Program-made: the position numbers and the translations under genes
Notes under the pieces: generated by a model
What the model was told of the DNA's origin: nothing
Database searches by the model: none
What the model saw: only the letters and a program-made list of their open reading frames with translations
In this document: positions 47,278-55,578 of the stretch, one piece after another
Layout: every line of letters begins with the position of its first letter
How positions within the stretch are numbered: the first letter of the stretch is position 1
NCBI RefSeq assembly: GCF_020217425.1
Contig: NZ_CP084090.1
Coordinates: 1,674,001-1,738,000 of the forward strand
Direction of reading: 5' to 3'
DNA length: 64,000 nucleotides
Source: Halomicrobium urmianum
Lineage (GTDB): Archaea > Halobacteriota > Halobacteria > Halobacteriales > Haloarculaceae

Positions 47278-47826
47278 CTACTTCTCCACCGTCAGCAGCG
47301 CCACGCGCTCCCGGACCAGGTCGGCGAGGTCGCCGTCCGTGGCCTCGAGTTCCCGCTCGGAGACGTCGAAGAAGTCCAGCACCGTCGCGCGGTCGTAGTC
47401 GCCGAGCGTGTCGGCGGAGGTGAGGAGGCCGGCCACGGCCTCGGCCGCGGCGGTCTCGTCTCCCTCGCCGTCGTAGTCGTGCACGACGGCGACCACCGGC
47501 GTCTCGCCCTCGCCGACGCCCATCTCGAGGGCGCGGTTGATCTGGCGGCGACCAGCGGCGTACAGCAGGATCTCGACGGCGCGGTCGCGGGCGATGGCGT
47601 CCTCGCGCTCGAAGGCGCGGTCGGCGAGTTCGACGGCTCGCTCGAGGTGCGCGCGGTCGACGACGTAGCGGGCGTCGAACGCCTGCACCGCGACGCCGTG
47701 CTCGTCGCCGATCTCGCCGAGCCGTTCGACGAAGGCGTCGACGTCCTCGTGAGCCTGCGAACGAGGGCTCGTCGAACTGTGTTCGACGGCGTCCCCGACG
47801 TCGGCGATCCCCTCGACGACCTCCAT
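47278..47826 (-). CDS. cgi121: KEOPS complex subunit Cgi121
   Basis: The product has 182 residues. The core VAVQAFDARYVVDRAHLERAVELADRAF and RDRAVEILLYAAGRRQINRALEMGV matches Cgi121, the tRNA-binding regulatory subunit of KEOPS, which makes t6A in tRNA. An acidic N-terminal extension of about 35 residues precedes it. The ATG overlaps the hel308 stop by one base (TGATG), so translation is coupled. Other KEOPS genes are not in the window. Confidence 0.87.
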   Translation of the reverse strand: MEVVEGIADVGDAVEHSSTSPRSQAHEDVDAFVERLGEIGDEHGVAVQAFDARYVVDRAHLERAVELADRAFEREDAIARDRAVEILLYAAGRRQINRALEMGVGEGETPVVAVVHDYDGEGDETAAAEAVAGLLTSADTLGDYDRATVLDFFDVSERELEATDGDLADLVRERVALLTVEK

Positions 47827-50231
47827 CAGAAGTCACCCAGGCTGGACTGGTCGTCGTTCTCGGCGGCCGCTTCGACCGCGCCGTCGGTGCCGTCGTCTCG
47901 GTCGCCGGTCCCGCCGCTCCCGTCGCCGCCGACGTCCTCGGCCGGTTCCACGCCCTCCATCGAGGGGTCGCGGTGGCCGGCGTTCTCCAGGACGTTCTCG
48001 GCGGTCTTCTCCCGCCCCCTGAGGGCGGCGAGGACGACGGACTTGTCGGCGTCCCGGAGGTCCGCGCGGGTCTCGATGCCGGCGTCGAACAGCCGGCGGG
48101 CGCGCTTGCGGCCGACGCCGCGGACGCCCGCGAGGTCGACCAGTTCCTCCCGGACGCCGTGCTCGACGCGGGTGCGGGCCCTGCGGACCGCCGGTGCGGT
48201 TTCGAGGCCGAGTTCGCTGGCCAGCGACTCCGCCGCGCCGAGCAGCCACTCGGCGGTCTCGACCTTGCCGCGGATGTCGCCCGGCCCGACGCCGTAGCGC
48301 TCGGTGATGGCGTCCTCGTCGACCTCGCCGGCCCAGTCCTCCAGCAGGCGGGCGGTCTTCAGCGCCGAGAGCCAGTCCTCCCAGCGGCTGTCCTCGTACT
48401 CGGAGGGCATCGGTCCGAGGAACTCCGCCTCGCGCTCGTAGGCCTCCTCCTCGTAGCGCTCGCGGTCGCCCGATCGGAGGTACAGCTCGTACATGTCCGG
48501 CGTGCGGCAGACGAGGTGGTAGAGGCCCAGCGCCGTGGGCTCGGGGACCGGTTCGTCGGTGTCGCCCTCGTCGCCTTCACCGTCCGCGAGGTCGCTGGCG
48601 GTGGTGAACCCCTCGGGCTCGGCGGCCGGCTGGCCGCTCCCGTCCTCCTGGTCCGTGGCCGCGTGCTTTTCCCAGTGCCTGAGCCCGTCCACGATCTCCG
48701 CGGCGCTCATCGGGTCGAGGTACAGGCGCGAGACGGTGTGGCCCAGCGAGGTGGCCGACAGTTCGTCGCCGTCGCGCTCGAGGAAGTCGTTCCGTTGCAG
48801 GTACCCCAGCACCTCGTCGACGACCCGCTCCAGCCGGCCGCTCTCGGTCGTCTGGAAGGCGTACAGCGTCCGCTCGAGGAACTCCAGCAGCCCCTCCCGC
48901 GAGCGTGCGAACCCGCTGGCGACGGTGGCGAGCAGGTGCGTCCGCAGCGCGGGCTCGGCGGCGAGCTTCGATCGGACCGGCTCGGGGTCGGCCCAGACGT
49001 ACCGCTCGAACAGCTCGTCCAGTTCGTCGTGGCTGGAGGCGATCAGCACGGCCTCGCCGTAGGGGTCGAGCCCGGGCCGACCGGCGCGCCCCATCATCTG
49101 GTGGACCTCCAGCACGGACAGCGGCGTCATGCCGCCGGCGCTGCCGTCGTAGCGCCGCCAGTCGCGGACCACGACGCGGCGGGCGGGCGTGTTGACCCCC
49201 GCCGCGAGCGTGGGCGTCGCGCTGACGACCTTGATGAGGCGGTCGCGGAAGGCGTCCTCGACGAGTTCGCGGTGGTTGGGGTCGAGACCAGCGTGGTGAA
49301 ACGCGGCACCGCACTCGACCGCCTCCGCGAGGTCGTCGCTCGTCTCCGTGTCGCTGACGTCCCGTATCTCGTCGGCGATCTCGGCGAGCTGGGATTCCTC
49401 CTCGTCGGTCAAATGCTTGCGCGTCGTCTGGGCCAGCCGTCGGGCCGCGGCCTCGGCGTTCCGCCGGGAGTTGACGAACACGAGCGTCGACCCGCCGGCC
49501 TGTAGCGTGTCGCGGACGACCGCGGCGGTCGGCTTCTCGTCGTTGCGGACGGGCAACTCGGACTGATTCCCGTCCTCCAGGTGCAGCGCCTGTCCGTAGT
49601 GGACGCCCTTCTGGAGCTCGATCGGCCGCCAGTCCGAGTCGACCAGTTCGGCGTCGAGCCACCCCGCAAGCTCGTCGGCGTTGCCGATGGTCGCGGAGAG
49701 GGCCACCGTCTGGAGGTCCGGGTTGATCCGCCGGAGCTTGGCCAGCGTGACCTCGAGCGTCGGCCCGCGCTCGCCGTCGTCGACGAGGTGGACCTCGTCG
49801 GCGACGACGCAGGCGAGGTCCTCCAGCCACGGCGCGTCGTTGCGGACCAGCGAGTCGACTTTCTCGCTGGTGGCGACGACGACGTCCTTCGACGCGAGCC
49901 AGCCCCCGTCTGACTCGTAGTTGCCCGTCGAGACGCCGACGTCGAGCCCGTACTGCTCGAACTGCTCGAACTCCGCCTGCTTCTCGCTGGCCAGCGCGCG
50001 CAGCGGGACGATGTAGAGGGCCTTCCCGCCGTTCTCGATTGCAGACAACATGGCCAGTTCGGCGATGAGGGTCTTTCCGCTGGCCGTGGGGATGCTCGCA
50101 ACCAGGTTCTCGCCCCGCGTGACGCCGGCCTCGACGGCCTCGCCCTGCGGGGGGTACAGTTCCTCGATGCCCTGGTCGCGCAAGTGGTCCGGCAACCAGT
50201 CGGGCACGCCCTGCAAGTCCGCGACGTCCAT
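47826..50231 (-). CDS. hel308: Hel308-type superfamily 2 DNA helicase
   Basis: The product has 801 residues. Helicase motifs: Q-motif region [11 protein letters not shown], Walker [14 protein letters not shown] ([12 protein letters not shown]), SATIGN, and motif [13 protein letters not shown] winged helix and ratchet follow, then a C-terminal HhH ([20 protein letters not shown]). The C terminus ends QSSLGDF, which looks like a PCNA-interacting (PIP) motif. It unwinds forks with 3'-5' polarity in repair. A GTTTAAAC box about 28 nt upstream supports ATG 50231 and a leaderless mRNA. It is cotranscribed with cgi121. Confidence 0.95.
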
Positions 50232-50324
50232 TACGCGCCCCTTTGCTCCTCCCGCCGTTTAAACTGTCGCCAGGCGTCGGAGGTGGTAGTGGCCCTCGCA
50301 GAATCGCCGTACAGGGCCAGAACG

Positions 50325-50572
50325 GCCAGAAAGCCCCCGCCCGCTCGACGGCTGTGACTCGCTGTGCTCCTCGCTTCGCTGCGGTGCTTGCTTCGTCTCG
50401 CTCGTCGAGCGGGCGGCCCCTTTCAGTCCCGCCCGTTCGGCTTTCCAGGTTGGGCGGGACTGAAAGGGGCGACCGGTTCGACGAAGGCGGCTGACGCAAG
50501 GACCGCAGCCGACCGGAGGGAGGCGAGGACCGCAGCGAGTCCCCCGAGTCGAATCGGTCGGGGCTTTCTGGC
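50325..50572. repeat. Cloverleaf-type nested inverted-repeat element 1
   Basis: Four helices nest with almost no gaps. Closing stem: GCCAGAAAGCCCC (50325-50337) with GGGGCTTTCTGGC (50560-50572). Arm A: 50339-50350 with 50403-50414, 12 bp perfect (GCCCGCTCGACG). Arm B: GCCCCTTTCAGTCCCGCCC (50416-50434) with 50452-50470, 19 bp perfect. Arm C: GACCGGTTCGA (50471-50481) with 50549-50559, 10 of 11. This is a four-way junction. It fills most of the 440-bp gap between hel308 and the ferredoxin gene. No ORF is supported in it. Element 2 at 55039-55518 has the same plan. Confidence 0.7.
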
Positions 50573-50673
50573 TGTTCATGGCGGTCGCAGTTGCGGTTCC
50601 AGCGACAGTTGATCCAGTGTCTATCGCCCCTAGTCCCGGAACCATAAGGAGGGCACCCGACCAAGCCCCGGAT

Positions 50674-50919
50674 ATGAAGATCGAGTACGATCGGGACACG
50701 TGCATCGGGATGTTCCAGTGCGTCGCGGAGTGGGACGCCTTCGAGAAGGACGAGGACGCGGGCAAGGCGGTCCTGGCCGACAGCGAGGAGCAAGTGGAGG
50801 ACGTCTTCGTCCGGGAGGTACCTGAGGACGCGGAACTGGACGCGAAGTTCGCGGCGCGGGCCTGTCCGGTCGAGGCGATCACCGTCTACGACGACGACGG
50901 CGAGCAACTGGTGCCCTGA
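50674..50919 (+). CDS. Ferredoxin, 3Fe-4S/4Fe-4S single-cluster type
   Basis: The product has 81 residues. MKIEYDRDTCIGMFQCVAEWD and a late AARACPVEAITVYDDDG carry the cluster cysteines: C-x5-C and a distant C-P. The spacing suits a single-cluster ferredoxin of the 3Fe-4S type rather than the plant-like 2Fe-2S ferredoxin typical of haloarchaea. It should carry electrons in the cytoplasm; the partner enzyme is unknown, though the next gene is an FAD oxidoreductase on the same strand. CCATAAGG about 30 nt upstream may be its TATA box. Confidence 0.82.
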   Translation: MKIEYDRDTCIGMFQCVAEWDAFEKDEDAGKAVLADSEEQVEDVFVREVPEDAELDAKFAARACPVEAITVYDDDGEQLVP

Positions 50920-54999: not shown

Positions 55000-55038
55000 G
55001 GATGCATAGCGGCTCGTTCTTCTGAATCAGTGGCAACG

Positions 55039-55518
55039 CCCAGAAAGCCCTCGGGCCGCGCGAGCCACGCTGCGCGCTTCGCTCACTGCGTTCGCTGTAG
55101 TGCTTACGGGCTCGTGCTTCCCCGACCGGCTCTCGCCCTTTCATCCGCCGAAAGACTCGCTTCGCTCGTCTTTCGAGCCCTGTGCTCGAAAATCGAAGAT
55201 TTTCGGCATGACGAGAGAGCGAAGCTCTCTCGAACCACCTCGCTCCGCTCGGCAGGACGCCAGGTCGCAACCGCAGCCCTGCCCTTCCCCGGTCGCGGCA
55301 CGGAGGCCGCTCCCGGCCGCGGTACGGTAGGAAGCGTGTCGCGCCGCTAGGCGCGACCGGGGAGGAGTGGTGGTCTCATTCGCTCGCGCCCTCGTGGCGC
55401 GAGCAATTCCCTGGCGGATGAAAGGGCGAGGCCCGCTCGCGGTCGCTGGGCGACATATCCTCGCTACGCTCGGATAGGGGTCGCCCAGCGACCGCGAGCG
55501 GGCCGAGGGCTTTCTGGG
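55039..55518. repeat. Cloverleaf-type nested inverted-repeat element 2
   Basis: The plan equals element 1. Closing stem: CCCAGAAAGCCCTCGG (55039-55054) with 55503-55518, 16 bp perfect. Arm A: GCGCGAGCC (55058-55066) with GGCTCGTGC (55109-55117), including a G-T wobble. Arm B: CTCGCCCTTTCATCCGCC (55132-55149) with 55413-55430, 18 bp perfect, its loop enlarged by 263 nt of smaller hairpins. Arm C: 55431-55454 with 55480-55503, 24 bp perfect. Arm A's loop shares TTCGCTGYRGTGCTTRC with element 1. The 580-bp gap holds no supported gene. A near copy of the right end (21 of 22) recurs at 55547-55568. Confidence 0.7.
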
Positions 55519-55578
55519 TGTTTGCGATGCTCACGTCGACTGCAGAGAGCGGGCCGAGGGCTGTCTGGCCGTCAGCAG

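Follow-up and report, generated by a model that had tools for sequence, protein, structure and literature searches.

The REP, BIME and REPIN sequences of bacteria, which are connected with RAYT Y1 transposases, are intergenic hairpin units that occur singly or as inverted pairs. The element described here is likewise an intergenic palindromic unit that is found both singly and as inverted pairs, is patchily distributed between species, is kept in its structure and shows no visible target duplication. It differs in the size of the unit (~100 nt as opposed to 20-40 nt for REP), in its boxes GAAAGCCCC and GCCCCTTTCAGTCCC, which contain no GTAG or CGTC tag, in stems that vary with compensatory change, and in that it needs no Y1 transposase, as in genome G008, but is tied instead to a gene encoding an OB-fold protein. 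MITEs, which are known in Halobacterium and Haloquadratum (review PMC10969869), share with the element a short, non-coding sequence present in many copies with terminal inverted repeats. It differs from MITEs in that no target duplication was seen and no parent IS was found, in its four-way-junction anatomy and in being inverted in place. The double-hairpin elements of fungal mitochondria are also small, with variable stems, and lie in intergenic DNA, but they differ in genome, boxes and size, and we know of no four-way junction described for them. Invertons, which are phase-variable invertible DNA, consist of a segment bounded by inverted repeats that is found both ways round in relatives, as is the present element. 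In contrast to invertons, however, the element is nearly palindromic, such that flipping changes little, and in the window no recombinase gene is adjacent to it. Finally, the Frpo-type single-strand promoters of conjugative plasmids, located upstream of ssb, resemble the plasmid locus to which the new family is linked in that long structured non-coding DNA precedes a gene for a single-strand-binding protein, although the locus is archaeal and of another sequence. Searches of the open literature found no description of the element sequence or of haloarchaeal palindromic repeats like it, and the string CTTTCAGTCCC occurs in a paper on an unrelated CRISPR repeat (PMC5217627). The family, which is present in many haloarchaeal genomes and is found neither in Rfam nor in the papers searched, is apparently undescribed.

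The element was studied in a 64,000-nt stretch of Halomicrobium urmianum DNA, referred to here as the window. An initial annotation had proposed four nested helices between positions 50325 and 50572, and a letter-by-letter check recovered all of them, with 13/13, 12/12, 19/19 and 10/11 pairs. The arms do lie within that span but the palindrome runs further, to about 50316-50582, which is the extent of the whole two-module element, an imperfect palindrome (~70% over both halves) without assigned strand. The closing helix P1 is formed by the end box GAAAGCCCC (50325-50337, plus strand) and the box GGGGCTTTC (50560-50572, plus), which pair in 13 of 13 positions; the end box shows almost no variation between copies. 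The 5' arm of the variable stem X (50338-50350, plus) pairs with the 3' arm X' (50403-50415, plus), the latter identified by covariation among paralogues. The left copy of the core, GCCCCTTTCAGTCCCGCCC (50416-50434, plus), forms helix P3 with the right copy (50452-50470, plus) in 19 of 19 positions, and the loop that separates the cores (50435-50451, plus) contains a weak TGG..CCA-type hairpin. The core occurs throughout Halobacteria. A second variable stem, Y, is formed by its 5' arm (50471-50482, plus) and 3' arm Y' (50548-50559, plus). In terms of modules, the left one (50328-50434, plus; delimited by the covariance model CM R1 and by alignment) comprises the end box, stem X, an arm, X' and the core, and the right one (50452-50570, minus; CM R1) is the same unit on the opposite strand. 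CM R1 matched them at 50318-50434 (plus) with 117.9 bits and at 50452-50579 (minus) with 127 bits, both sequences belonging to its training set.

The claim that such folding does not arise by chance was borne out, with an RNA fold energy of -178.7 kcal/mol as compared with a mean of -118.3 (sd 5.2) for dinucleotide shuffles (z -11.7), none of 200 of which was as good. The computed minimum for the window copy is nevertheless one long hairpin in which the left half pairs with the right half, and the cloverleaf of this copy is less stable by ~16 kcal/mol with RNA parameters or 10 kcal/mol with DNA parameters. The proposed four-way junction, which is not the energy minimum of the window copy, is instead backed by covariation across species, as described below. 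Several open frames, the longest of 207 aa, cross the element on both strands (window 50259-50907). They are artefacts of translating the palindrome; elsewhere, frames of this kind may be annotated as genes.

Searched as DNA, the same genome yielded 86 matches, which fall at about 25-30 places and almost exclusively on the largest contig, and CM R1 matched 45 modules. The unit of the family is a hairpin module of ~100 nt with the invariant end boxes GAAAGCCCC and GCCCCTTTCAGTCCC and a variable 12-bp stem. Its order is an outer GAACARCC-AGAAAGCCCC, stem X (~12 bp), whose sequence varies between copies, an arm carrying the boxes CTCGCTGYGSTCCTC and GYGGTSCTTRCKTCG, X', and the core GCCCCTTTCAGTCCCGCCC; in two-module elements the second half is the first-half unit on the other strand. 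The second element that had been claimed in the window, at 55042-55516 (no assigned strand; AGAAAGCCCTCGG ... GCCCTTTCATCC ... GGATGAAAGGGC ... CCGAGGGCTTTCT), proved to be a two-module element of a second, kindred subfamily, with CM matches at 55032-55138 (plus) and 55412-55525 (minus). Further examples of this subfamily (AGAAAGCCCTCGG ... GCCCTTTCATCC) are L046, L047 and L051, the last a chimera whose left half belongs to subfamily 2 and whose right half belongs to subfamily 1. Cores without a partner retain GGGNGGGACTGAAAGGGGC (GGGNGGG upstream) in 47 of 54 cases (genomes G000, G005 and G006), which indicates that the box is constrained by itself and that the functional unit is the single module. 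It is possible that the four G runs of a module form a G-quadruplex. At L106 and L144 the hairpin is gone and the boxes alone remain.

Covariation was used to determine which fold is kept by evolution. CM R1 was trained on 14 paralogous modules of the same genome, and a search with this model revealed 151 modules at 77 loci of other species. Among the 14 paralogues, both-sided changes affect 17 of the 18 pairs, with 77 double-change cells as compared with 24.5 after shuffling and at most 13 in slid controls; within stem X, they were seen in 11 of 12 pairs. The cross-species set A2 consisted of 150 of the 151 modules, none of which had been used for CM R1. In these modules 93.1% of the cells are paired, and double changes number 826 in contrast to 265 after shuffling and at most 127 when slid; the alignment was fitted to the structure and hence favours it, but the slid controls come nowhere near. 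The initial annotation had made its proposal dependent on covariation in further copies, and both-sided changes occur at all 18 pairs. Orthologues such as L108/L125 and L096/L137 show them by direct comparison. Across 108 two-module elements, stem X:X' has 11.1 of its 12 positions paired and stem Y:Y' 10.9 of 12, whereas X and Y', the partners in the long hairpin, pair at only 6.0 of 12; both module stems reach at least 10 in 92 elements and the long hairpin does so in one. The far better pairing of X:X' and Y:Y' identifies the four-way junction as the conserved fold. Evolution thus keeps the four-way junction, although the energy minimum of the window copy is the long hairpin, and the window copy, being a head-to-head pair of modules, is taken to form such a junction.

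Compensatory base-pair change, by which structured RNA families are recognised and which these modules display, is normally taken as proof of a functional RNA. In an explanation along these lines, the transcribed module would be a small RNA or a leader element, for example of the OB-fold gene, and the chromosomal copies would be paralogous RNA genes or cis-regulatory RNAs. The strong covariation agrees with such a role, as do the retention of boxes in single modules without a palindromic partner and the position of a module within the long conserved leader of a gene (see below). Arguing against it is the scarcity of G-U pairs, which account for 26 of 2594 cells (1%) in A2 as opposed to 11.5% in the stems of 14 tRNAs at these loci (stems predicted by folding; Fisher p 3e-21), so that the G-U tolerance typical of RNA stems was not seen in the modules. 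Mismatches flanked by good pairs, counted in module orientation over all pattern-found modules, comprise 55 A-C and 17 G-T (23:7 when clustered, p 0.005), which on the outward strand is a preference for G-U over A-C, but G-U on this better strand still amounts to about 2%. The strand bias, which stems in part from position 11 and carries little evidential weight, hints that the fold of one strand matters more, and RNA could also explain so mild a bias. However, the strand that is preferred runs antisense to the OB-fold gene, paired modules face opposite ways and the pairs invert, the orientation of elements to neighbouring genes is not fixed, and Rfam returned no match, either for the window at the gathering threshold or for the OB-fold loci at a relaxed threshold. 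A structured RNA, one of the options in the initial annotation, is therefore not favoured, and we regard it as rather unlikely. The rarity of G-U is read instead as pairing kept almost wholly Watson-Crick, by selection at the DNA level or by correction between arms, and the pairing seems to be kept as DNA rather than as RNA.

The core motif occurs in 21 of 40 relatives, with no matches to the reversed control, and is patchy even within the genus, in which four species lack it and two others are rich in it. In a search of 84,980 species the two-core pattern was found in 117 stretches, and all 80 among the matches listed were from Halobacteria. Plasmids carry single modules; viral contigs gave one single match and phages none. 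A crude gene caller placed no core inside a called gene, and the neighbours of the elements are divergent genes slightly more often than expected (38/95 vs 70/257). A role as 3'-UTR or terminator was dismissed, there being no bias toward convergent genes.

In the window the element occupies a 442-bp gap between the divergent genes of a hel308-like helicase (47826-50231, minus; an ORF that is syntenic in relatives) and, by sequence resemblance, a small ferredoxin-like protein (50674-50919, plus; ORF, synteny). In G001-G003 the gene order is unchanged, and a ~105-nt spacer without an element separates the two genes. Overall, the gap is an empty spacer of 84-118 nt in about 15 genomes and is occupied in four genera; strain SHR40 (L202) carries there a two-module element with quite different stems, and G008 and G020 carry single modules. 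A hel308-specific function was rejected because copies at other places lie beside different genes and the site is without an element in most relatives; the earlier suspicion that the adjacency is coincidental was correct in this respect, but the gap has nevertheless been occupied in four genera. A second pair of filled and empty sites is L129 (G005) and L268 (G006). No target-site duplication was seen by eye in the flanks or at the L129/L268 empty site, where the insertion boundary is uncertain because 40-50 nt of extra flank differ at this one clean empty site.

These observations bear on two further explanations. A classical MITE of a known insertion-sequence family would account for short, multi-copy, intergenic sequences with inverted terminal boxes, but it would be expected to leave a target-site duplication and to have a transposase gene with the same ends, neither of which was found, and it is structure rather than sequence that is conserved; this explanation is scarcely credible. 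In a non-systematic look, no gene was noticed between the modules of an element. A Y1/RAYT partner was also rejected: G008 has 37 cores and no PF01797 match, and over 40 genomes the occurrence of Y1 transposases does not follow the number of copies. The one Y1 gene found beside a copy (L034) belongs to an IS200/IS605-type element inserted into the left-module arm (L034 about 900-1560; G000:C1:1504900-1505560). Alternatively, the element might be a DNA site useful to the host: as a cruciform or four-way junction it would bind a junction or nucleoid protein of the cell and serve as an intergenic insulator or as a site of recombination or supercoil relief. Such a site would fit with a junction geometry and boxes that are conserved throughout an archaeal class, with the many positions that two species have in common, and with the slight excess between divergent genes. 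Yet this excess is weak, whole genomes of the same genus do without the element, and copies have been lost, halved or deprived of their hairpin, for which reasons we consider a host site unlikely.

Comparison of G005 (HArc-gm2) with G006, which are about 90% identical, revealed rearrangements within the elements. Most element positions are common to both genomes, which implies that recent movement is rare. All five comparable two-module elements are inverted in place with conserved flanks (L090/L260, L094/L121, L097/L264, L108/L125 and L112/L142); two of the inversions are clean, and in the other three an unrelated stem has in addition taken the place of one half. The hallmark of invertons, a locus found in both orientations, was thus observed between species only, and L196/L235, a pair from another group (Haloarculaceae), is collinear. 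Assembly errors are unlikely to have created the inversions, given how short the outer inverted repeats are and that each stem is unique. Such palindromes could also be by-products of replication that owe their origin and their perfection to template switching and arm-to-arm correction and have neither a selected function nor mobility. Near-perfect Watson-Crick arms, inversion in place, hairpin deletions and nested extra hairpins are indeed what palindrome instability would be expected to produce. This scenario does not explain, however, why the same end and core boxes occur across Halobacteria, why the core is conserved in partnerless single modules, or why the place and orientation beside the OB-fold gene are fixed, and it is very unlikely. 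A large family that covaries with almost no G-U and that also flips points to DNA-level selection or correction. Among the options named by the initial annotation, a DNA-level palindrome or transposable-like repeat fits best in view of dispersal, presence and absence at individual sites, and in-place inversion.

On six plasmids from different genera, the match to the window element precedes by 0.4-0.6 kb a gene encoding a 'DNA-binding protein' of 285-300 residues. The C-terminal part of this protein matches PF01336 below the cut-off, a partial match to replication factor A (PRK07217) has an E value of 5e-14, and the solved relative 2kbn one of 6e-7; judged by these similarities, this region is an OB fold. 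A module is located upstream of the OB-fold gene, 0.4-1.2 kb away and always in one orientation, in about two thirds of 26 loci. When loci in relatives were fetched by the protein alone, the module was upstream in 10 of 18, in the same orientation throughout, and when plasmid loci were chosen by the leader alone, it was present in 6 of 8 by the model, with pNRC100 added by eye. Distant paralogues with a module are encoded at C1:2344584 of G000 (core at 2343846) and on C6 and C10 of G011. Between module and OB-fold gene lies a conserved, hairpin-rich, non-coding leader of ~450 nt (L310 3640-4071; L333-L340) that matches 155 plasmids, including pNRC100 and pNG600, belongs to no Rfam family at the relaxed threshold applied to the OB-fold loci, and is conserved too strongly for its covariation to be judged. 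Among complete genomes, 13 have both the OB-fold gene and the core, 5 the gene alone, 2 the core alone and 9 neither (Fisher p 0.008, ignoring relatedness and with the borderline cases, a pseudogene in G002 and distant homologues in G011, assigned by hand); some genomes thus contain the OB-fold gene without a type-1 core and a few the reverse. The link to a conserved RPA-like plasmid locus extends to the tractable hosts Halobacterium salinarum (pNRC100) and Haloarcula marismortui, in which the role of the module is directly testable.

We tentatively favour the explanation that the element is a non-autonomous, intergenic dispersed repeat of Halobacteria that is based on DNA hairpins and related to the OB-fold cassette, a reading that is plausible if somewhat short of probable. 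Modules with invariant end and core boxes around a stem of free sequence, in which Watson-Crick pairing is kept, close head to head into a four-way junction, and according to this model the folded or extruded DNA strand would be what is recognised. The invariant boxes may be where recombination or template switching flips elements and exchanges their halves. The element would spread in trans with the help of a factor brought in by plasmids, and the OB-fold protein is the best candidate for a binder of the folded strand. A more far-reaching version is doubtful: a four-way-junction DNA structure of invariant boxes and arms of free sequence would be kept by compensatory evolution across an archaeal class, and a plasmid-linked OB-fold protein, whose own gene carries the same module and the 450-nt leader, would recognise it in the form of folded single-stranded DNA. 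The two together would make a new kind of genetic element that is built on hairpins and can flip and shuffle its halves.

Some copies depart from the basic plan. Small extra hairpins from a shared set (CGAGAGAGC..GCTCTCTCG, GAAAATC..GATTTTC and CGAAAGACGCC..GGCGTCTTTCG) are nested in the module arms of L033, L036, L042 and L055, where they occupy different places. At L100 (G006) and L120 (G005) modules stand back to back with their end boxes ~27 nt apart, resulting in chains of hairpins. At L290 and L277, which represent two genera, a second conserved box, GAGGGATGA ... GGYTGGGGRGGTRTGTGG, shortly precedes a single module.
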